Assembly: GCF_014698335.1 (NCBI RefSeq) | Contig: NZ_JACJSV010000050.1 | Span: 1-35,474 of the forward strand | DNA from: Microcystis viridis FACHB-1342 | GTDB taxonomy: Bacteria > Cyanobacteriota > Cyanobacteriia > Cyanobacteriales > Microcystaceae | Direction of reading: 5' to 3' | Length of the DNA: 35,474 bases | Shown here: in pieces, positions 1-9,096 of the stretch | Layout of the letters: each line of letters opens with the position of its first letter | Position numbering within the stretch: the stretch's first letter is position 1 | Notes under the pieces: model-generated | What the model was told of the DNA's origin: nothing | What the model saw: the letters and a program-made list of their open reading frames with translations, nothing else | Database searches by the model: none | Made by a program: the position numbers and the translations under genes

Positions 1-1
1 T

Positions 2-415
2 TTGATAATTAATCAAGATAATGGATCAGAAAATAATTCGAGACGAACTCAGTTTATGAAACGTATAGTTGAGTTTTCCCAAAAATATCAAGTTAATATA
101 CGTTTAGCTTACTATCCCCCCTACCATAGTAAATATAATCCTATTGAACGAACCTGGGCTGTGTTAGAAAACCATTGGAATGGGAGTATTTTAGATGAAA
201 TCGAAACAGCTTTGAAATTCGCCCAAACTATGACTTGGAAAGGAAAACACCCGATTGTTAAGTTGATTACTGAAACTTACGAAAAAGGAGTAAAGCTTAC
301 TAAAAAAGCCATGGAAAAAATCGAAGAAAAAATCGAACGTCTCACAGAATCAACGAATCAAGACTTTCCCGATTTGGGGCAATGGTTTATTGATATTTAT
401 TATGATAAGACCTAG
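2..415 (+). CDS. ISAzo13-family transposase, C-terminal part (cut by window edge)
   Basis: This is the C-terminal part of a DDE transposase; the rest lies left of the window. The frame is open from the first bases and ends with TAG at 413-415. Visible family signatures are a DNGSEN motif near the start (second catalytic Asp region) and a YYPPYHSKYNPIERTW block followed by VLENHWNG, which carries the catalytic Glu (PIER). This arrangement is typical of the ISAzo13 (Rhodopirellula-type) transposases common in cyanobacteria. The first Met in view is internal, so no true start is visible. A MITE is inserted directly behind the stop codon. I do not identify the right terminal repeat of the IS itself, so its boundary towards the truncated ATPase gene downstream is uncertain. 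Confidence 0.8.
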   Translation: MIINQDNGSENNSRRTQFMKRIVEFSQKYQVNIRLAYYPPYHSKYNPIERTWAVLENHWNGSILDEIETALKFAQTMTWKGKHPIVKLITETYEKGVKLTKKAMEKIEEKIERLTESTNQDFPDLGQWFIDIYYDKT

Positions 416-423
416 TTTGTAGT

Positions 424-610
424 GGCTCTTCGTTACTTGGTATGGTTCGATAGGGGGGCATAAATCGACTAAATCCTTATCTGGCAAGGGATTTAATTGA
501 TTAGTTCGCTCTAGATCGAAAATAATTAACAAAAATCGCTAAATGCCTTTCTATATAAGGGTTCCATCCCTTATAACCCCCGTTCATTGCATAACATAAA
601 CCGAAGAGCC
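424..610. mobile_element. 187-bp MITE with ISL3-like ends and 8-bp target duplication
   Basis: The element begins GGCTCTTCG (424-432) and ends with the complement CGAAGAGCC (602-610). The inner parts of the ends are also similar but imperfect. It is flanked by perfect 8-bp direct repeats TTTGTAGT (416-423 and 611-618). GGCTCTT-type ends and 8-bp duplications are the known signature of the ISL3 family, so I infer that an ISL3 transposase mobilises it. There is no coding capacity. Inside is a perfect 8-bp stem, TATAAGGG (554-561) with CCCTTATA (568-575). Confidence 0.85.
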
Positions 611-890
611 TTTGTAGTTAACTAAGATGGTTAGCTAAAAACTGTATTTGATTCTTTAACTTGTCCTTGTTATACTCGAAAAAGCTCGGAAGTATAAAAG
701 TTTATGCTGCTATTTTTTTTTCGGAAAAATAGGTTGTAATGGGAGACTCTTTGTTTTCCTAGACAAAAATAATTACTTTTTCAAAAAAACACTTTTCTAT
801 TTTTTTGTTGGGTATTTTATTCTCTGGAAGTCCCTTAAAGAGTTACCAAATGCACTTGCCGCCCATATTTTACCCGGTTTTCTGGCGAGT

Positions 891-2000
891 TTGACATCTA
901 GCAGTTGGAATATAATCACCCAAGACTTAGGGGGGGATTTGTCCCTTTATCTACAAGGTCGAGGACTCCAGAAAAAAGATTTTCAACGGATCACCGAGTT
1001 AGACCCCGATACGGAATTGATTGTTGCTTTGCCTAACTTTTTTGCGGAAGATCTCAAGGTCGCCATGCAAAGAGAGGGCGCTCCTGAAAAACTGGTGCTG
1101 TTTTTCGACACCCACGAAGCCTTTTGGGGAGAAGGGCGCAATCAAGGAAGTGCCAGATTTTTCAAGCAGGATGAGTGGCTGCGGTGTCTGTTGTCGCAGT
1201 TGTTGGAGTTGCCCCAAATTGTCATCGTCATGGCAGGACGGGAAATTCCCCAGTGGCATCGAGCCAGCTATTGTTCAATTACAGCGGACAAGTTAGAGTG
1301 CAGGCAAGTGTTCAACTTTCAAGTAACCGATGCCCTCGACTACCTACAAAGAGTCGGAATTGAGGATACCCAAGTGCAGCAGAGCTTGATTGCCTATAGT
1401 AGTTTTGATGGCGATTCCGTTCATCCTCTCTTGCTGGGGCTATGCGCGGATTTAGTCAGGATGGCGCCAGAAAAAAAAGAAGCCTTTACCGCTGCCGACT
1501 TTCAATCCGTTTCCGAGACAGGAGAGGGATTTAATCGGAAATTAGGGATTTTGGTAGAAAGGCTCCTAAAATACACGGACAGGGTGTTGGAAGATGCGGT
1601 TTATGTCTTGAGTGCCTGTCGAGCCTTTAATGAAGACCTTTACTTTCATCTGGGCGAATCCTTGAAATGCAATCCCTCCCATGCTGCCTTTGACTCGCTC
1701 CTCAGTTTTTCCTTCGTCTGGCAGGCAGAGCAACAAGGTGAAGGGTGGTATCGTCTTCATCCCTTCATCCGTCGTTTCAACCACGAGCAGAAGCGGGAGC
1801 GAACCCAGGCTGCCCATCAAGTCTTGGAGCGGTACTATCGAGAAAGGGGCAATCTGGCTGAAGCTCTCTATCATGCTTATTGGCATGGTCCTCTGAGAGC
1901 GAAAGAGGAGTGGATCGAAGTTTTTGGAAAAGCCAACCAACAGGAGGACAATGAACTATGTCAGGCACTAGCGGAAATCAAGAAAGAAATTCCTTTCTAG
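891..2000 (+). CDS. STAND/AAA-type ATPase fragment, N-terminus (Walker A) missing
   Basis: This fragment of a signalling ATPase carries a Walker-B-like strand LVLFFDTHEAFW at residues ~68-79, then helical winged-helix/sensor-like sequence and a start of TPR-like helices at the C-terminus (ALYHAYWHG...). No Walker A motif (GxxxxGKS/T) is present, although it should lie upstream of Walker B. The TTG at 891 is simply the first possible start. The frame stays open upstream to at least ~720, and the stretch from ~840 (ELPNALAAHILPGFLASL) still looks like coding sequence of this family. The 5' part therefore seems to have been lost or replaced, probably through the neighbouring IS/MITE. The C-terminus stops exactly where the next ORF continues the TPR region in another frame, which points to one original gene split by a 1-nt deletion near 1996. 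It is probably inactive as an ATPase. Confidence 0.65.
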   Translation: MTSSSWNIITQDLGGDLSLYLQGRGLQKKDFQRITELDPDTELIVALPNFFAEDLKVAMQREGAPEKLVLFFDTHEAFWGEGRNQGSARFFKQDEWLRCLLSQLLELPQIVIVMAGREIPQWHRASYCSITADKLECRQVFNFQVTDALDYLQRVGIEDTQVQQSLIAYSSFDGDSVHPLLLGLCADLVRMAPEKKEAFTAADFQSVSETGEGFNRKLGILVERLLKYTDRVLEDAVYVLSACRAFNEDLYFHLGESLKCNPSHAAFDSLLSFSFVWQAEQQGEGWYRLHPFIRRFNHEQKRERTQAAHQVLERYYRERGNLAEALYHAYWHGPLRAKEEWIEVFGKANQQEDNELCQALAEIKKEIPF

Positions 2001-2926
2001 ACGGTCAAATTGCCCAATTAATCGGGGATTATCTAACTCGCTTGCAGCGATATGAGGAAGCTAGGGAGGAATACCAAGAAGCTAGTGAAGGGTATGAAAA
2101 TATCTCTCCCGCTTCCCCGGACTTTGAGACAGCCCAAAATAACCAAAAAGTAGTTCTGGGAAAACTTAATCGCTTACCAGAGCGGCAGAAATCCAGTCAA
2201 GACTATCGTTTAGAAAAGCTCTTTGCTGTTGAAAAGGAACAATCTCGTTCAGTTTCCTTAAAAAGCCGAGTCAATTTGAGCCAATGGTTGCAAAATGTTT
2301 TTGAGGAAAGCTGGCAGACGATTGAACAGCTTTTTGCACCTGGAGAACCCTGTTTTGCCTATGCTTATGCCTTACGCGAGCGCGGGGCTGATTTTATGGA
2401 TTCCAAGACGGTTAGCGATTTAATTGAGACGATTTATACCAGTCAGGAGGAGCATCGCCGCAGACAAGCAGCACTGCGCTTGGGAGAGATGGGAACTGCA
2501 TCTTCTGAGGTATTGGCGGCTCTGACTCACTTGCTAGAGGCAACTCAGGATGAAGAAACCCGTTGGAGTGCGGCAGAGAGTTTATGGCGGCTCGCTCCGC
2601 ATAACTTGGCAGCCGGGTTGAGGAGAGTTAAAGATTTAGGAATGCTGATCGGGGAACACCCAGTGACTCTAATGGTGGCTGTCTTGCCTAAAACTGACCA
2701 AATGATAGCGGTTCTCCTCAGGGTCTATCCGATGCGAAACCAGAAATATTTGCCTGCCCACTTACAATTAGTAGTGTTAGATGAGGCTGGGAAAACCTTT
2801 TTGGAAACTGAGGCAAGAGAACTGGACAATTACATCCAACTCAAGTTTAGTGGTTCACCGGGAGAACAGTTCAGTGTCAGGGTGGGACTGGGAGAGGCAA
2901 ATATTACCGAAGATTTTACCCTCTAG
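1958..2926 (+). CDS. TPR/HEAT-repeat protein with C-terminal DUF1822 domain
   Basis: Residues ~12-75 are TPR-like (TRLQRYEEAREEYQEA), residues ~145-215 hold HEAT-like helices (RRQAALRLGEMG; RWSAAESLWRLAP), and the C-terminal ~75 residues match the DUF1822 ending (LRVYPMRNQKYLPAHL, DNYIQLKFSG, GEQFSVRVGL, ITEDF). DUF1822 proteins are a cyanobacterial family of unknown function often encoded beside CHAT proteins. The ATG at 1958 overlaps the preceding ORF by 43 nt. The first ~14 residues have no family look, whereas residues from LDGQIAQLIGDYL continue the preceding protein smoothly if one C is restored after TTTC. I therefore think this was the C-terminal half of a STAND-TPR-HEAT-DUF1822 protein. 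It may still be translated separately, as a scaffold or sensor for the CHAT protein. Confidence 0.75.
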   Translation: MSGTSGNQERNSFLDGQIAQLIGDYLTRLQRYEEAREEYQEASEGYENISPASPDFETAQNNQKVVLGKLNRLPERQKSSQDYRLEKLFAVEKEQSRSVSLKSRVNLSQWLQNVFEESWQTIEQLFAPGEPCFAYAYALRERGADFMDSKTVSDLIETIYTSQEEHRRRQAALRLGEMGTASSEVLAALTHLLEATQDEETRWSAAESLWRLAPHNLAAGLRRVKDLGMLIGEHPVTLMVAVLPKTDQMIAVLLRVYPMRNQKYLPAHLQLVVLDEAGKTFLETEARELDNYIQLKFSGSPGEQFSVRVGLGEANITEDFTL

Positions 2927-2989
2927 CAGAACTTTCCCCCTGAGAAATTGCTAGGAACTAAAGTACAAGTAAACGGAGAAAGTTTAATC

Positions 2990-3307
2990 ATGAAAACCGC
3001 ACTAACCGAATACAAGCATATTCAAATAGACGAACGCGGGATACCAATGATTGCAAGCTCGACAATGAAGGTGATTGATCTGGTGATGGCTCAGATGGCT
3101 TACGGTTGGACTCCTGAAGAAATTCAAATCAACCATCGCCATTTGAGTATGAGTCAGATTCACTCAGCCTTCGCCTACTATTGGGATCATAAAGAAGAAT
3201 TGGACGGGGCGATCGCTGCCGATCTGGAATATGCCCAAAAAATGCGGCACTCAGCGATCGAGTCGCCTTTTGTGGCCAGACTTAAAACACAAGGAATTCT
3301 CAAGTGA
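2990..3307 (+). CDS. DUF433 domain protein (VapB-like antitoxin fold)
   Basis: This 105-residue protein shows the DUF433 pattern: a short beta region, then VIDLVMAQMAYGWTPEEIQINHRHLSMSQIHSAFAYYW split here as VIDLVMAQMAYGWTPEEI and SMSQIHSAFAYYW, the winged-HTH-like core in which a region after the strand ends 'WxPEEI...HLS..QI..A.AYYW'. DUF433 proteins are mostly antitoxins of DUF5615/PIN-like toxins. No such toxin is next to it; instead it sits 31 bp upstream of the CHAT gene. The ATG at 2990 was chosen because AACGGAGAA lies at a Shine-Dalgarno distance; a TTG at 2948 would give a longer, unsupported N-terminus. Its role may be a DNA-binding autoregulator or inhibitor of the CHAT protein, which is inference only. 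Confidence 0.8.
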   Translation: MKTALTEYKHIQIDERGIPMIASSTMKVIDLVMAQMAYGWTPEEIQINHRHLSMSQIHSAFAYYWDHKEELDGAIAADLEYAQKMRHSAIESPFVARLKTQGILK

Positions 3308-3338
3308 GCCTCAAACTTTATTACGACAGGTGGTAGCG

Positions 3339-5030
3339 ATGGCTAAGTTAGTGACTGTTAAATTGGGAGAAGGCAACTGGGAACAGGGATTTCCTGTTAT
3401 CCTGCAAATTGCTGAGGAAGGCTCCCCTCCTTCGATCGAAGTTACAGGTAAATTGCCAAGCGCTCCGGAAATTCCCCAAAACTATGACCAATGGCAGTCT
3501 AGTTATAGACATTTGCCTGTTGTTGTCAGGCTAACAGCACCTGCTACCCAAATTACCAATGTTTCCACTACTGCCGACTGTCGCCAGACCCTTCAAACTT
3601 TGCAAGATAGCCTCAAACGCTGGCTGAACTCCGAGTCGTTTCGTCCAGTGAGAGAGCGTCTGTTAGAGAATTTGAACCGTTCCGAACCCATTCGCTTCAT
3701 CATTCAAGCTGGGGATGGCTATTTGCGGCGGCTACCTTGGAATTTGATTGAGTTCTTTGACCATTATCCCAAGTCAGAGGTTGCGATCGCCGCTCCTGTC
3801 TTTGAAAAAATTGTTAGCCCACCTTCCCCCACCAAAAGGCTGAGAATCTTGGCAATTTTAGGCAATAGCGAGGGCATTGACGTGACGGCAGATAGACGCT
3901 TCTTGGAGAATTTGCCAGGGGCTGAGACGGTTTTTTTGGTAGAACCGCCTCGACAAAAGATTAGCGAACAACTTTGGGAACAACACTGGGACATCCTTTT
4001 TTTTGCCGGACACAGCCATACGGAAGGGGAAGTGGGGCGCATTTATATTAATCAAAGGGAAAGTTTGACTATCGGTGAGTTAAAACATGGTTTGAGGACA
4101 GCGATCGAAGGGGGGTTACAGTTAGCCATTTTTAACTCTTGTGATGGGTTGGGGTTGGCCAAGGAATTGGAGAATTTGCAAATTCCTCAAGCGATCGTCA
4201 TGCGAGAACCTGTACCCGATAAGGTGGCACAGGAGTTTTTAAAGCATTTTCTCAAGGCATTTTCTAGGGGTAAATCTTTGTATTTGTCGGTGCGGACGGC
4301 GAGAGAACGTCTAGCTGAAGAAGGATTAGATACGGAACTGCCGGGGGTGATGGGGCTGCCCGTTATTTGTCAAAATCCTGCTGCCGTTCCTATAATTTGG
4401 CAAACTCAGAAGAGGCTGCCTATCCGTTTTTGGATAGCACTTCCCTTTGTTTTTGCCGCTTCGATGGCACTGGTGTTTATTATACCTAGCATTATCTCAA
4501 TGTCAAATCACAATGAAAATTCACCTCCAAATCGACCGCCAGAAATTGAAACCTATCAATTCCACAAGTACGGAATTTCAATAAAATATCCCCGTAACTG
4601 GCAATTACAAGAGGGAAAAGGCGACCTAGAAGGATCAGGAATTTTTGTCAAATTTTCACCAGATAAAAACGATTTATCCTCTTTTCCTCCTCGCCTTACT
4701 ATTAGCCTAGACGAATATTTGATTGGTCCACCTATGTTAGACGATTATGTGAATGACACTATCTCTAAAATAATAAATCAACAAAACTCCAGCATTATTC
4801 TTAGGTCTGAGCAGACGACCTTAGCGAATAATCAAGCTCATCTCATTGAGTATACTTGGCAAGATGATCTAGGTTTTCAGTTGAAATCTTTACAGTTCTT
4901 AATGATAAAAGGAGAAAAAATTTACAGAATCACCTACACGGCGGAAAATAAAGAATTTCCTGAGTTTTTGCCGCTTGTAACAAAGGTTATGATTAATTCA
5001 TTCCAAGTTGAACTGAATCCAAATCTCTAG
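3339..5030 (+). CDS. CHAT-domain (caspase-like) membrane protein with PsbP/Mog1-like C-terminal domain
   Basis: This 563-residue protein starts at ATG 3339, where the typical cyanobacterial N-terminus MAKLVTVKLGEGNWEQGFPV begins. A longer frame from 3231 overlaps the DUF433 gene and lacks family resemblance. Residues ~1-145 are the conserved N-terminal region of cyanobacterial CHAT proteins. Residues ~165-345 are the CHAT peptidase domain, with both catalytic residues: His225 in ILFFAGHSH and Cys268 in AIFNSCDGLG. One hydrophobic helix follows at ~363-387, then a domain at ~405-560 resembling the PsbP/Mog1 fold (YGISIKYPRNW ... YRITYT). CHAT proteins are caspase-related cysteine peptidases used in regulated proteolysis, defence and suicide circuits. 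With one helix, the peptidase is probably cytosolic and the PsbP-like domain extracytoplasmic. Substrate and trigger are unknown. Confidence 0.88.
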   Translation: MAKLVTVKLGEGNWEQGFPVILQIAEEGSPPSIEVTGKLPSAPEIPQNYDQWQSSYRHLPVVVRLTAPATQITNVSTTADCRQTLQTLQDSLKRWLNSESFRPVRERLLENLNRSEPIRFIIQAGDGYLRRLPWNLIEFFDHYPKSEVAIAAPVFEKIVSPPSPTKRLRILAILGNSEGIDVTADRRFLENLPGAETVFLVEPPRQKISEQLWEQHWDILFFAGHSHTEGEVGRIYINQRESLTIGELKHGLRTAIEGGLQLAIFNSCDGLGLAKELENLQIPQAIVMREPVPDKVAQEFLKHFLKAFSRGKSLYLSVRTARERLAEEGLDTELPGVMGLPVICQNPAAVPIIWQTQKRLPIRFWIALPFVFAASMALVFIIPSIISMSNHNENSPPNRPPEIETYQFHKYGISIKYPRNWQLQEGKGDLEGSGIFVKFSPDKNDLSSFPPRLTISLDEYLIGPPMLDDYVNDTISKIINQQNSSIILRSEQTTLANNQAHLIEYTWQDDLGFQLKSLQFLMIKGEKIYRITYTAENKEFPEFLPLVTKVMINSFQVELNPNL

Positions 5031-5087
5031 CAAAATATGAGGAGAAAAATCAATTTTGATAACAGGTCTACAGATTGAGAGAGAAAT

Positions 5088-7181
5088 TTATACTCTTCCA
5101 CCTAGAAGCTCATTAATTCTGTCAATCGCATCTTGGTAATCTTCTTTTCTATTTTGTTGTTTATAAAGTTCTGCTGCTTTTTTAAAATCTTCTAAGGCTT
5201 TTGGTTTTTCTCCGAGATCTCTATATGAAAGCCCGCGGTTGTAGTAAGCATTCGCCCAATCGGGAACCAGACGAATAACCTGAGTATGATCATTAATTGC
5301 TCCCCGATTATCTCCCAACTCACGATGAATCAAACCTCGCTCAAAGTACGCAATGTGATATTGAGGATCGTTGAGAATTGCTTGATTATAATCCTTGAGT
5401 GCTTCCTGATAAGCTTTAAACCGATTAGAATGAATCCAACCCCGAAGAAAATAGGCACGAGCATCTTTGGGGTTGAGGCTAATAGCTTGGTTCAGATCTT
5501 TAATAGCTTCTTGGTGTTCCCCTAATTCATCTCTAGCATCTGCCCGTTCTCTGTAGGCAGCTGCATATTTTGGGTTGCGCTTAATTGCTTCATTGTAATC
5601 GGATATTGACCCTTTATAATCTTTTAAGTAATAGCGGGCGTTTCCTCTGCCGAAATAGATACTCGCAGATCTAGGGACAGCAATATTCTCCTTAGTTAGA
5701 GTAACATCAAAATCTCCTCTATCTTTGCGTCTAAGCTTCAAGGTGACTTGAGTAACCGACTCACTGCTCATTTGATTAACAGTTAGTTCAACTAAATCTT
5801 CCGCACTTTTGTTCAGTGTTGATTTACCATTAATAGCTATAATTAAATCATCTAGAATCAAGCCTTGTTTGAAAGCAGGAGAGTTTTCAAAAATCTTGGT
5901 AATAATTAGCCCTTGACCAGATTCATGTCTCCGATATTGAAAACCCAAGCCAGAGTATTCTAAGAAGTTAAGGGCTTGAGTATAATCAGAGATCGCTCCT
6001 TGGTAGTCTTTTAAAGAATAGCGGGCATCGCCACGATTTTCGTAAGCCAGAAAAACATCAGGGTCGAGGCGAATTGCCTCAGTGTAATCCAAGATTGCTT
6101 TCTGATATTCCCCGAGTTCTGCATAGACAGTTCCTCGGTTGTTATAAGCTCCGCTGTATTCTGGATCGAGACGGATCGCATGGCTATAATCTTCGAGCGC
6201 ACCTTGGTTATCTTCACTATAATCACGAGCTAAACCACGCCAAAAATAAGCTCTGGAGTTGTTCGGGTTCAGCTTGATAACTTCAGTCATATCCGCAATG
6301 GCTGCTTGATATTTGTTTTGCTCGATATATGCGATGCCTCTTTGTAAATAAGCATCAACATTGTTAGGTGAAATTTGCAAAACGCGATTGTAAGCTGCAA
6401 TCGCTTCTTCATAGTTACCGCTATTGGCCTTAGATATTCCTAGAGTTAGTAAGTCTTCTGCAGTAGGCTGAAGAGCTACCGCAGGTGGCGATAGTACTGG
6501 ATTATTCCGAGCCGCCAAAAAAGTTTTGATAGGAATTGCCAACCTCAAAGCTCTATCATCTGGTGACTCACGTAGCCCATTAATACCAATTAGAAAACCC
6601 TTTTCATCTAACAACGGACCCCCTGACATCCCAACAAAGATAGTATTATTAACAACTAAAGCATAACCTCCACCTTCTGGCGTAGAGCGTCGTTCTATAA
6701 AAGAGCCAACATTAAAACTGTATTCACGTTTTTCGGTTTTTGGTTGTTTAGCCGTCCAACCCGAAGCGTAAACTATTGCAGAACCTATGATTTTGTCAGA
6801 ATCGCCTAACTTAGCAATTCTATAATTTTTATTACTCTCAAACTCCACTACTGCTAAGTCTAGCCCTGGTATTTCTTTTCTATTATAAATAGGATAACGA
6901 TTTCCATCTGAGGTTTGAATTTCATATTGTCCTGCTTGAAATTCATTACTTTTGTCGTTATAGAAAACATGACGACAAGTTAAGACAAAATATTTGTTAC
7001 CTTGTCGGTCAAAAATCACCCCAGAGCCAGTTCCTGCACCGTCAATTTTTACCGTAATTTCTTCAGCAATAACTTGAATCTCTTGAAGTGTCAACGCTAT
7101 AGCAAGCTGAGGTTGCACTAGACAAACCACTGCCCCAATTAGTGCGACTGGAATTTGATAGGAAAATTTCATCATTATCAT
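5088..7181 (-). CDS. Trypsin-like serine protease with TPR - PDZ - TPR architecture
   Basis: This 697-residue secreted or periplasmic protein has a signal peptide at ~1-30 (ending QLAIALT). Residues ~38-228 form an S1-type protease domain with a complete triad: His71 (TCRHVF), Asp108 (GLDLAVVEF) and Ser186 (GMSGGPLL). TPR repeats follow at ~244-400 (YEEAIAAYNRVLQISPNN type), then a PDZ-like domain at ~405-500 (GLIITKIFENSPAFKQGLILDD), then a second TPR array at ~505-690. The PDZ domain is thus sandwiched between two TPR arrays, unlike Deg/HtrA where it follows the protease directly. It is the last gene of a three-gene minus-strand operon (18 bp after the upstream protease) and converges on the CHAT gene with a 57-bp gap. 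ATGs at codons 1, 3 and 4 are all possible starts. A role in envelope proteolysis or assembly is likely; the substrate is unknown. Confidence 0.88.
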   Translation of the reverse strand: MIMMKFSYQIPVALIGAVVCLVQPQLAIALTLQEIQVIAEEITVKIDGAGTGSGVIFDRQGNKYFVLTCRHVFYNDKSNEFQAGQYEIQTSDGNRYPIYNRKEIPGLDLAVVEFESNKNYRIAKLGDSDKIIGSAIVYASGWTAKQPKTEKREYSFNVGSFIERRSTPEGGGYALVVNNTIFVGMSGGPLLDEKGFLIGINGLRESPDDRALRLAIPIKTFLAARNNPVLSPPAVALQPTAEDLLTLGISKANSGNYEEAIAAYNRVLQISPNNVDAYLQRGIAYIEQNKYQAAIADMTEVIKLNPNNSRAYFWRGLARDYSEDNQGALEDYSHAIRLDPEYSGAYNNRGTVYAELGEYQKAILDYTEAIRLDPDVFLAYENRGDARYSLKDYQGAISDYTQALNFLEYSGLGFQYRRHESGQGLIITKIFENSPAFKQGLILDDLIIAINGKSTLNKSAEDLVELTVNQMSSESVTQVTLKLRRKDRGDFDVTLTKENIAVPRSASIYFGRGNARYYLKDYKGSISDYNEAIKRNPKYAAAYRERADARDELGEHQEAIKDLNQAISLNPKDARAYFLRGWIHSNRFKAYQEALKDYNQAILNDPQYHIAYFERGLIHRELGDNRGAINDHTQVIRLVPDWANAYYNRGLSYRDLGEKPKALEDFKKAAELYKQQNRKEDYQDAIDRINELLGGRV

Positions 7182-7199
7182 ATTTCTTTTGAAGAATTA

Positions 7200-8045
7200 C
7201 TACTGCTTGTGGGTTCTGAGTGCTGGAAGTCCTAACTGTTTGAAGGTTTCAATGGGGATTCCCCAACTATATTGGCTCATTTTCTTATGTTGATCTGGTG
7301 TTGCTTCAGAATTATCTGTAAATTCATAGGGAATATCCCAGAGAGGTTCTGCGTGCATTCCATTAATAGCAATAACTTCACCCCGATGATTGAATAGTGG
7401 CCCCCCGCTCATTCCTTTTTCAATTACATTAGTATAGCCAATTTGATAGCCACCTTTTAAGGGCTTACTTAGTATCTGCGTGACTTTCCCGCTGGTAAAA
7501 ACAAAGCCAGTATTATAGTCTGTAATGGACGGTGAGATTGGCCTTGTAGATGATTCTACTGACAAGGGAAACCCTGCAGCAAACACCTCTTCTCCCACTA
7601 TCGCAGGATCACCAAAAGACGCTACTTTATATACAACCTTAAAGCTACGAAACTGCAACAAAGCCAAATCATTACCCTTAAATGATACAGACTGGAATAA
7701 ATTAGCTAAATAAACATGGCCATCTGAAGTCTGAATATGATATGGGGGAGTACCAGATCTCAGGACATGGGCATTAGTCAGAACTGTATAAACTGTTCCC
7801 TGACGGTTTGCTAGGAATCCCGCCCCTATGACTTCTCTTGAGAGAATTCTGACTGTGATAGACTGAGCCTGTTTTGGCAATTGCTCCGATATTAAAGATA
7901 GCCCAGCCGCTTGCCAAGATAAACCCAAAAGAGAAATCTTTGAGTCTCTACTTGGAATAGACACCCCACCATTGAGCAACCCAAAAGGAATGAAGATCGA
8001 TGAACTCCCCATACAAGCAACTACTATTACTGTCCGCCACCGCAT
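7200..8045 (-). CDS. Secreted trypsin-like serine protease (stand-alone)
   Basis: This 281-residue protein has a hydrophobic N-terminus (residues ~4-28, signal peptide or anchor). One S1-type protease domain spans ~60-275 with an intact triad: His93 (TNAHVL), Asp126 (GNDLALLQF) and Ser213 (GMSGGPLF). It has the same core as the protease domain of the next gene but no TPR or PDZ extension, so the two are likely paralogues. It lies 22 bp after the COP23 gene and 18 bp before the TPR protease, so the three are probably co-transcribed. It could process the COP23 protein or act with the TPR protease, which is an inference from neighbourhood only. Confidence 0.87.
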   Translation of the reverse strand: MRWRTVIVVACMGSSSIFIPFGLLNGGVSIPSRDSKISLLGLSWQAAGLSLISEQLPKQAQSITVRILSREVIGAGFLANRQGTVYTVLTNAHVLRSGTPPYHIQTSDGHVYLANLFQSVSFKGNDLALLQFRSFKVVYKVASFGDPAIVGEEVFAAGFPLSVESSTRPISPSITDYNTGFVFTSGKVTQILSKPLKGGYQIGYTNVIEKGMSGGPLFNHRGEVIAINGMHAEPLWDIPYEFTDNSEATPDQHKKMSQYSWGIPIETFKQLGLPALRTHKQ

Positions 8046-8067
8046 ATTAGTTTGTTTTGTAATTCAC

Positions 8068-8691
8068 TCACTGATCCCAAATGTCTGAATTTTGATCAAA
8101 TGGCGAGGAAGAAGAAGAAGAATTTGAAGGATTCACCCCTCCCAACAAACTGTTTACATCTAGGTAGAATTCGCCATTGACTTTGGAAATTTCGCTATCC
8201 CCACTTAGAAGGACGGGTTTACCTGAAGCAAGTCTGGCATTATCTTTGATCTGTTCTAAAATAATCTCAGGATTTGTCCCGCGTTTGAAAGTCACTAGCA
8301 CTCCGTCTTTAAGACAAGGGCCGCCTTTAAAAGTGGCAACGCACAAGATAGGTTCTCCTCTGAGTATTGCCGCTTTAATAAACTTCAATGTACCATTGGA
8401 GTAAAATCTTTGGAATCTTTGAGATACAATTACACAACGCTGTTGAGGAGTATGAGGTGGAGGAAAAGAATCGTCTTGCCAACGAATTAGCTCAACATTA
8501 CCCGCAAGTTCAGTGACAACAAAGGTTGCGGGTCCTCCTTCTCTGCTCATACTGCAAAAAAACTTCTGAGTTTGAGCAGAACTGGGCTGCCCACCAATAG
8601 CCAAAGCCCCAACGAAGAGGAATAGGGATAATTTTCCAGAACTATAGTCTTCAAAGCCTTGCCTAGCAAGACTACTAGGAATGATCAGCAC
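8068..8691 (-). CDS. COP23-domain secreted protein (N-terminus possibly altered by IS end)
   Basis: The 207-residue frame contains a COP23 domain at ~43-170, recognised by FFCSMSREG, GNVELIRWQDD, TPQQRCVIVSQRFQ, LKFIKAAILRGEPILCV and paired cysteines. The C-terminal tail is rich in Ser/Asn. COP23 is a circadian-oscillating membrane protein family known from unicellular cyanobacteria; its biochemical role is unknown. The hydrophobic signal sequence begins only at ~residue 20 (KLSLFLFVGALAIGG). The only start upstream of it is a GTG at 8691, three bases from an ISL3-like terminal sequence (8694-8719), and no in-frame ATG precedes the signal peptide. The natural start may therefore have been lost and the annotated N-terminus may be artificial. 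It is the first gene of the protease operon. Confidence 0.8.
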   Translation of the reverse strand: MLIIPSSLARQGFEDYSSGKLSLFLFVGALAIGGQPSSAQTQKFFCSMSREGGPATFVVTELAGNVELIRWQDDSFPPPHTPQQRCVIVSQRFQRFYSNGTLKFIKAAILRGEPILCVATFKGGPCLKDGVLVTFKRGTNPEIILEQIKDNARLASGKPVLLSGDSEISKVNGEFYLDVNSLLGGVNPSNSSSSSSPFDQNSDIWDQ

Positions 8692-8693
8692 TG

Positions 8694-8719
8694 ATTATCA
8701 TACAAAGTCGAGAAGAGCC
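8694..8719. mobile_element. Solo ISL3-like terminal sequence (IS/MITE scar)
   Basis: These 26 bp match the right end of the MITE at 22829-22961 (22936-22961) at 25 of 26 positions and end in AGAAGAGCC. No partner GGCTCTTC end is found to the left, so this appears to be the remnant of an element whose interior pointed into the COP23 gene. Confidence 0.65.
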
Positions 8720-8824
8720 GCAAAAACTCGCATTGTGACCGTTTGAAGTATAGCAAATCCGTTTTTGATCGATAGTACGATTAACTCCCAATCCAACTTT
8801 AACAACCCAGTTATGAATTGTTTC

Positions 8825-8919: not shown

Positions 8920-8937
8920 TGGAATTGTCGCAAAAAT

Positions 8938-9011
8938 GGGATTGTAGTTCAATTGGTTAGAGCACCGCCCTGTCACGGCGGAAGTTGCGGGTTCGAGCCC
9001 CGTCAATCCCG
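8938..9011 (+). tRNA. tRNA-Asp (anticodon GTC)
   Basis: This is a 74-nt cloverleaf. The acceptor arms are GGGATTG (8938-8944) and CAATCCC (9004-9010), with discriminator G at 9011. The D-loop is TTCAATTGGTTAGAG, the anticodon stem is CCGCC/GGCGG with anticodon GTC at 8972-8974, and the T-arm contains GGTTCGAGCC. CCA is not encoded, so it would be added post-transcriptionally. A strong promoter lies directly upstream. Confidence 0.97.
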
Positions 9012-9096
9012 TAAAAATCCAGATTAGAGTCGTTTAAGGCGAGTTGACCAGTGGGCAGTAGGATGAATAAACAGAATCCTACTGCCTAGATTGGTT

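Follow-up and report, generated by a model that had tools for sequence, protein, structure and literature searches.

A probable accessory-island copy of the EACC2-CHAT/DUF1822 system, cut by an insertion sequence, in Microcystis viridis FACHB-1342

The CHAT caspase-like gene of Microcystis viridis FACHB-1342 lies in a locus that is very probably an accessory-island copy of the known EACC2-CHAT/DUF1822 system in its rarer STAND form, with a DUF433 gene as an inserted orphan. The window analyzed here is a stretch of 35,474 nucleotides (contig NZ_JACJSV010000050.1), and the features of the locus are collected in Table 1. Genes for CHAT and DUF1822 proteins, mostly together with an extracytoplasmic function (ECF) sigma factor, have been described as the EACC2-caspase conflict system (eLife 2021, PMC8195603). 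The locus forms an island that the three congeners used for comparison (G004, G007, and G008) lack at this site; in them, a gap of 53 to 64 nt separates the left flank from the sequence matching window position 8788 onwards. PADLOC gave no match for the four window proteins scanned, and a scan of genome contigs gave one partial relative, which was left out.

Table 1. Coordinates of the features of the CHAT locus in the window
Feature	Positions	Strand	Basis
Insertion sequence, right part	1..834	+	Pfam DDE_Tnp_ISAZ013, E 8.2e-36; copy on contig C48 with the same end
Putative STAND-type NTPase gene, C-terminal two thirds	838..2000	+	Alignment with the full-length G020 and G051 relatives
TPR/HEAT/DUF1822 protein	1958..2926	+	Pfam DUF1822, E 5.8e-41; HEAT_2, E 1.5e-7
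DUF433 protein, 105 aa; most likely the orphan antitoxin of a DUF433-DUF5615 pair	2990..3307	+	69-74% identity to DUF433 proteins of congeners
DUF5615 toxin gene remnant	3304..3336	+	11 codons including the stop, the first eight alignable; compared with L098:4053 onwards
CHAT caspase-like protein, 563 aa	3339..5030	+	Pfam, catalytic dyad, hydropathy

The CHAT protein consists of an N-terminal constant region and a CHAT domain (Pfam, 45.8 bits; cutoff, 24), a single hydrophobic helix at residues ~364 to 386, and a PsbP_2-like tail (37.8 bits; cutoff, 27). It contains the catalytic pair His225 and Cys268 (563-aa numbering), and both residues were found in 48 of the 49 CHAT relatives with letters at both alignment columns (three fragment rows with gaps there were left out); the sole exception, L127, lacks both. 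Pfam, alignment, and hydropathy thus bear out the original prediction of a caspase-like protein with this dyad, a membrane helix, and a PsbP-like domain, including the conservation of the pair, which had been put forward as a check. The listed start of the gene (3231) is too early; the longer ORF from there overlaps the DUF433 gene out of frame, and from the start given in Table 1, the N-terminal ~100 residues align with those of the relatives almost from residue 1. We refer to this region as a putative EACC2 on the basis of its position and the description in PMC8195603, rather than a match to an EACC2 model. The C-terminal domains of the nine CHAT relatives scanned were CHASE2, TPR, nSTAND1-WD40, or PsbP_2. 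The single-sequence structure model of the CHAT protein was of unusable quality (mean pLDDT, 37.6), and a search of PDB sequences matched no chain at E values up to 1.

In a quick tree of 49 CHAT rows (4 short rows of 53, including L149 and the G051 fragments, were dropped), the window protein fell within a set of 16 (support, 94) and L094, from genome G020, in another set; L148 was on a long branch with an unsure placement, and 20 of the 45 inner branches had support below 80. A single origin of the STAND-linked CHAT proteins is unproven, since this tree splits the window protein from L094, and on the same 49 rows a single origin of the PsbP_2-tailed proteins is likewise unproven.

The recurrent partner of CHAT is DUF1822, which was found within 2 kb upstream of 38 of the 51 other CHAT ORFs examined and is the next same-strand ORF in 37. 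Upstream of DUF1822 in these 38 were 13 genes of the L102 sigma family (3 of the matches being weak, with E values of 1e-5 to 6e-4), 19 genes of the L103 type, a family of short genes without a name, and 2 STAND-type genes, with none of these kinds in the remaining 4. That the short L103-type gene encodes a sigma factor is unproven, a comparison of its profile with that of the L102 sigma family having given a probability of 1.5%, and neither the window nor the final 13.9 kb of contig C76 gave a match to the L102 or L103 profile. The window DUF1822 gene overlaps the end of the STAND gene by 43 nt. Its product matched DUF1822 (141 bits) and HEAT_2 (32 bits; cutoff, 27.7), as expected of the repeat scaffold originally proposed, whereas the TPR part of that proposal had matches below the cutoffs only. 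The picture of an operon of the signaling or conflict type in which a caspase-like membrane protein is encoded together with DUF1822 and a STAND-type protein is supported, and of the linkages suggested for checking, that with DUF1822 recurred whereas the STAND-type gene occurred in only 2 of the 38 loci. No publication was found by pairing the names DUF1822 and CHAT.

The STAND-type gene is broken. The contig starts inside an insertion sequence, with a transposase fragment at positions 2 to 415 and the terminal repeat GGAAGTCCC at positions 826 to 834, followed by TTA. This element, ending at position 834, cuts the gene, so that ORF 891 to 2000 represents the C-terminal two thirds only, and the missing N-terminal part, which carries the P-loop GDGGNGKS, lies at the end of contig C76, starting at position 43257. 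The two halves, on contigs C76 and C85, have matching terminal repeats and TTA at both sides; these ends and the synteny suggest that the contigs are joined through the insertion sequence, a junction that no single contig spans. ORF 891 to 2000 lacks a P-loop, and Pfam gave it no STAND match (MalT score, 13.9 bits, passing no cutoff). The G051 relative scored 20.4 bits with AAA_16 (cutoff, 32.6), and neither the G020 relative nor the C76 half matched a STAND or related profile over the cutoff. The STAND label is therefore a putative one, based on the P-loop and the overall pattern of the full-length relatives, which agree with the gene type first proposed; as a working component of the locus, however, the gene is broken, with its P-loop half separated.

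The STAND-DUF1822-CHAT order is uninterrupted in the fetched stretch of G020, where it stands beside a ParA-type gene, and degraded in G051, where CHAT is cut short; in both genomes no gene lies between DUF1822 and CHAT. None of the other 11 genomes of the genus gave a STAND relative.

The 105-aa protein encoded between DUF1822 and CHAT scored just under the DUF433 cutoff in Pfam (22.1; cutoff, 23.6), but its DUF433 label is confirmed by near-whole-length alignment with DUF433 proteins that precede DUF5615, including 74% identity to a paired DUF433. The DUF5615 partners of the congeners' DUF433 genes are intact or damaged. A DUF5615 gene is at least partly present beside 14 of the 19 DUF433 relatives fetched (L075 to L093), being of full length beside 9. 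The full adjacent toxin gene is missing here, and about eight alignable codons remain just before the CHAT start, reading VSLKLYYDRW-stop as compared with VNLKLYMDEN. The aligner placed the break at the same base as in G003, G004, and G010; the break is not at an identical base, because the likeness to VNLKLYMDEN runs about two codons beyond that point. Among the 49 other CHAT stretches, DUF433 was found in only one, that of G051, where it is on the opposite strand beside the truncated CHAT. Linkage searches with two profiles ruled out DUF433 as a recurrent CHAT partner, and no publication was found naming DUF433 with the CHAT domain or with DUF5615. The idea of DUF433 as a new regulator of CHAT was not supported, since, apart from G051, the linkage was seen only in this genome.

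The DUF433 gene most likely came in with a toxin-antitoxin pair that inserted between the DUF1822 and CHAT genes and afterwards lost its toxin. That its reading frame is intact despite the toxin loss, and that only 2 nt separate the stop codon of the remnant from the CHAT start, would also suit a working regulator, in which CHAT replaced the DUF5615 toxin, is read from the antitoxin promoter, and is coupled via the remnant, so that DUF433 controls CHAT synthesis or activity. VapB10, a DUF433 protein of Synechocystis, is reported to bind and activate its own promoter (PMC3834315), which favors such an arrangement. We nevertheless consider it quite improbable: it was seen in one genome only, genes of this DUF433 group have often lost their toxin or have a damaged one, PMC4963859 lists DUF433 genes of Synechocystis that stand alone, and the genome has 26 DUF433 matches, which makes a chance insertion easy. 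It is very improbable that CHAT in the place of the toxin constitutes a caspase-based toxin-antitoxin module made by gene replacement, with a self-activating antitoxin-type regulator controlling a membrane-bound protease. Hardly credible at all is the complete STAND-DUF1822-DUF433-CHAT suicide switch first envisaged, with DUF433 as a native partner; the gene order in the window alone speaks for it, against the ORF without its P-loop half, the toxin remnant after DUF433, and a DUF433-CHAT linkage that does not recur.

We regard it as possible, though rather unlikely, that DUF1822-DUF433-CHAT is a dead remnant, silenced by polar effects of the insertion sequence and by decay. The cut STAND gene, the absence of the island from three congeners and of STAND relatives from the 11 other genomes, and the truncated CHAT in the similar G051 locus are in line with this, but neither the DUF1822 nor the CHAT frame is truncated, and CHAT retains its catalytic pair. 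The inserted-orphan reading has observations counting against it as well: no intermediate of the DUF433 insertion was found and no close CHAT ortholog that lacks DUF433; of the two other CHAT loci of the STAND type, that of G051 also has a DUF433 near CHAT; and DUF5615 is also missing beside 5 of the 19 DUF433 relatives.

As described in PMC8195603, the EACC2-caspase system shares with the window locus a constant N-terminal region with a caspase domain, an adjoining DUF1822, and a variable C-terminal domain that may lie outside behind membrane helices. An ECF sigma factor is reported there in the majority of the neighborhoods with DUF1822, and a TRADD-N partner in the other subgroup. The window locus differs in having a STAND-type gene instead of the sigma factor gene, as well as a PsbP_2 tail and DUF433; the terms "PsbP" and "DUF433" are absent from the main text of that paper. 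VapBC10 of Synechocystis, a DUF433(COG2442)-PIN pair (PMC3834315, PMC4963859), resembles the locus in its antitoxin-size DUF433, and relatives of the window DUF433 precede a PIN-like DUF5615 gene, whereas in the window about eight alignable toxin codons are followed by CHAT. HetF of Anabaena likewise has a CHAT domain and one predicted membrane segment, but it has TPRs and a cell division role (PMC8406250), and the window protein scored 26.9 bits with the HetF model (cutoff, 1200). TPR-CHAT of Craspase is also a bacterial CHAT caspase-like protease but is CRISPR coupled (PMC9729208).

If the locus is indeed such an EACC2-CHAT/DUF1822 copy, the STAND-type NTPase gene would occupy the place of the sigma factor or other small gene of most copies. 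The single helix would anchor the CHAT protein with its peptidase inside and its PsbP_2 domain outside the cytoplasmic membrane, and DUF1822 and, where the locus is intact, also an NTP-dependent STAND switch could relay or gate a signal from the outer domain. Activated by self-cleavage or partner cleavage, the peptidase may then elicit a stress, anti-invader, or cell death response. Such a membrane-bound protease response, as predicted from the sequence, is probably impaired here; as encoded, the STAND protein cannot bind NTP, which makes it probable that the system has become uncoupled or is decaying in this genome.

The window holds a damaged, strain-specific copy of a CHAT/DUF1822 system that has been described before (PMC8195603). 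Mobile DNA can give rise to what looks like a new partnership between genes: in this locus, one gene was interrupted by an insertion sequence, and two others were most likely separated by a toxin-antitoxin pair that later decayed. What deserves further attention is the DUF1822-CHAT system in its rarer STAND form, present in three genomes, one of them with uninterrupted order; this form suggests that the caspase system can exchange its upstream input module.

The CHAT protein of the locus bears the features that the original prediction assigned to it: the His225/Cys268 dyad is present in the alignment, a single hydrophobic helix lies near residues 364 to 386, and the tail scores as PsbP_2 (37.8 bits; cut-off, 27). 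Its start agrees with that of its relatives (MAKLV...); a longer ORF from position 3231 was rejected because it is out of frame with the DUF433 gene, which it overlaps, and because the start at 3339 matches the relatives. PsbP_2-like tails were also seen on CHAT proteins from another family of the order, in the fetched stretches L149 (2396 to 3613; 43.3 bits) and L148 (3980 to 5656; 20.2 bits, below the cut-off of 27). A perfect TTGACA-16-TATAAT promoter-like site lies inside the CHAT gene on the minus strand (4506 to 4479), and promoter-like sites in total numbered 6 against a shuffle mean of 5.5, i.e., no excess.

Features of the CHAT locus and the adjoining insertion sequence in the window
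Feature	Coordinates	Strand	Remark
Insertion sequence, end part; transposase fragment	2-415	+	Terminal repeat at 826-834
STAND-type fragment	891-2000 (listed ORF)	+	Frame open from 838
TPR/HEAT/DUF1822 protein	1958-2926	+	
DUF433 protein	2990-3307	+	
CHAT protein	3339-5030	+	563 aa

Both His and Cys were found at the catalytic columns in 49 of 53 aligned CHAT rows; three of the others are fragments gapped at these columns, and one has neither residue. With the window row left out, the pair is kept in 48 of the 49 rows with letters at both columns, although the rows are not independent (two were identical in the tree input). Conservation of this strength, which the original prediction had made a point to check, speaks for peptidase activity in the CHAT family. 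The exception, in comparison genome G074 (L127, 2966 to 5455), has N and G at the two columns and is possibly an inactive regulator.

Relatives of the CHAT and DUF1822 proteins occur, linked or not, in 79 and 81 of 98 genomes, respectively (own genome included; E up to 0.001). Linkage was assessed in stretches at 49 CHAT-match places besides the window, drawn from well over 150 matches listed; for the most part these were each genome's top match, to which the STAND-type loci and the own genome's second copy were added. These stretches hold 51 CHAT ORFs, with a split gene of G096 counted once and two short fragments of G051 included. Of these ORFs, 38 have a same-strand DUF1822 gene no more than 2 kb upstream, which in 37 is the next same-strand ORF; the other 13 have none within 2 kb. 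Beyond DUF1822, 13 loci carry a gene of the sigma family represented in L102 (one fused to DUF1822, three weak), whose L102 member scores as sigma-70/ECF (60.3 bits; cut-off, 42.9); 19 carry a short gene from another family, 2 carry a STAND-type gene, and 4 carry none of these. Of the STAND, DUF1822, and DUF433 genes put forward as CHAT neighbours, DUF1822 is common in these stretches, STAND occurs at two loci besides the window, and the DUF433 linkage does not recur. The CHAT-DUF1822 pairing is common and, as the consulted part of PMC8195603 indicates, already published; EACC1, a related system of earlier date, is treated in PMC7159879.

In FACHB-1342, CHAT matches total 14. Contig C97 carries another CHAT-DUF1822 set, with two short sigma-family ORFs; its CHAT protein, which has a CHASE2 tail, shares ~34% identity with the window CHAT and is listed in six congeners too. 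Its open frame, shortened in the CHASE2 tail, is 572 aa versus 825 to 827 aa in those congeners, and this second set may therefore be damaged too.

The STAND gene of the window is cut by an insertion sequence. The fragment aligns to residues 197 to 568 of a 568-aa, full-length relative in G020 and to the corresponding region of a 591-aa relative in G051, and both relatives carry GDGGNGKS in their first 70 residues. The STAND label given to them derives from this P-loop and the overall pattern; in Pfam neither passed a cut-off (best for G051, AAA_16 with 20.4 bits versus 32.6), nor did the C76 half of the window gene. That missing half, P-loop included, occupies the extreme end of contig C76 from position 43257 and runs into insertion-sequence DNA; the insertion is marked by the element end repeats GGGACTTCC/GGAAGTCCC and by TTA on each side. 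The gene for the proposed upstream sensor is real but broken, and the protein as encoded here should not bind NTP, the P-loop half being gone. Inside the insertion sequence, a ~187-bp repeat (424 to 610) recurs elsewhere in the genome in at least 38 copies of 85% to 100% identity (40 of 114 candidates scored), while a further copy of the insertion sequence, on C48, is without it; the repeat looks like a miniature mobile element.

The STAND fragment has a relative in 5 of 98 near genomes, and the full-length G020 protein has one in 8 of the 386 genomes searched across the phylum; both counts include the own genome. Among the nine other genomes in the two lists, DUF1822 and CHAT sequences adjoin the STAND gene in G020 and G051; in the other seven it takes the form of a single long STAND-TPR protein, and the stretch fetched shows no DUF1822-domain or CHAT match. 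The STAND and DUF1822 frames overlap by 43 to 55 nt in the window, G020, and G051, which suggests that the two proteins are made together. The window CHAT does not group with that of G020 in the weakly resolved CHAT tree; the linkage to STAND may therefore have arisen repeatedly or have been exchanged as a module.

The DUF433 protein had been proposed as a regulator of the peptidase in a possibly new partnership. Searched against the ORFs in the CHAT and STAND stretches, a profile of its subgroup recovered the window protein only, and a broader DUF433 profile, applied to the window plus 56 stretches (49 containing CHAT and 7 containing STAND-TPR genes), added two: one in a STAND-TPR locus without CHAT (L187) and one in G051 (L095; 67.6 bits). 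The latter is encoded on the opposite strand and overlaps the end of a CHAT fragment truncated to 115 aa, and from its different strand and position and the truncation we read it as another insertion. The array to which it belongs (L095, 7335 to 17235) comprises, besides this DUF433 gene, two CHAT fragments (115 and 89 aa), a long CHAT of 992 aa, two DUF1822 genes, and a STAND-type gene. That this DUF433 also sits in a STAND-type locus speaks partly against an insertion relic. With 26 DUF433 matches in the own genome (25 over the Pfam cut-off), a given 3-kb stretch has a ~1.7% chance of holding one.

The closest DUF433 relatives in the 98-genome search, 69% to 74% identical, are in seven congeneric genomes. 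The gene that follows is an intact PIN-like DUF5615 (50.7 bits; cut-off, 23.8) in G005 and G011 and a damaged one in G001, G003, G004, and G010; in G008, no DUF5615 gene was found in the DNA fetched. Among 19 DUF433 relatives (L075 to L093), a full-length DUF5615 lies alongside nine, a partial one beside five (L076, L078, L079, L082, and L091), and none at E up to 0.001 beside five (L080, L081, L090, L092, and L093). In G004 (L076/L099), G003 (L079), and G010 (L082), DUF5615 is without an internal stretch (about residues 7 to 45), a case of toxin decay in which the antitoxin survives. Where DUF433 ends in the window, a short ORF of 11 codons starts (VSLKLYYDRW plus stop). It aligns with the toxin start VNLKLYMDEN along eight residues, with six identities, and its stop is 2 nt ahead of the ATG of CHAT. 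The DUF1822-CHAT gap is 412 nt here versus 28 nt in G020 and a short overlap in G051, neither of which has a gene between the two. The window DUF433 is best explained as the leftover of a DUF433-DUF5615 pair, and its combination with CHAT as an insertion relic.

The locus is an accessory island, spanning window 838 to 8787 and C76 42818 to 43937 (L174) and bounded by a flank shared across the genus on one side and the tRNA-Asp/phosphorylase region on the other (tRNA-Asp, 8937 to 9012). The C76 DNA left of the STAND gene (40676 to 42719) is 96% to 98% identical in all 11 other congeneric genomes searched (split over two contigs in G001). In these 11, matches to window 5100 to 8050 did not exceed 73 bp, the search for STAND-fragment relatives found none, and the best CHAT matches were at most 49% identical among the matches listed. 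At the site fetched in G004, G007, and G008, the left flank (to about C76 42818) is followed after 53 to 64 nt by window 8788 onwards, so the STAND, DUF1822, DUF433, CHAT, and 5088-to-8691 genes are missing there together. The convergent set at 5088 to 8691, which shares the island with the CHAT operon, encodes two trypsin-like proteins, the first with PDZ and TPRs, and COP23; a 1,295-aa ORF near the CHAT locus of L136 (ending at the stretch edge) matches the two trypsin-like proteins.

From the observed parts and their conservation, we infer that each step in an intact locus would most likely run as follows: the outer PsbP_2-like domain and/or the STAND protein would sense a trigger, DUF1822 would relay the signal to the CHAT peptidase, and the peptidase would cut itself or a partner. 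This is in line with the consulted part of PMC8195603, whose authors propose that a stimulus is sensed and the peptidase then self-activates. The locus is a damaged copy, with genuine parts, of a known kind of system; as the STAND input is broken in FACHB-1342, the CHAT-DUF1822 pair would be driven by other inputs or be decaying.
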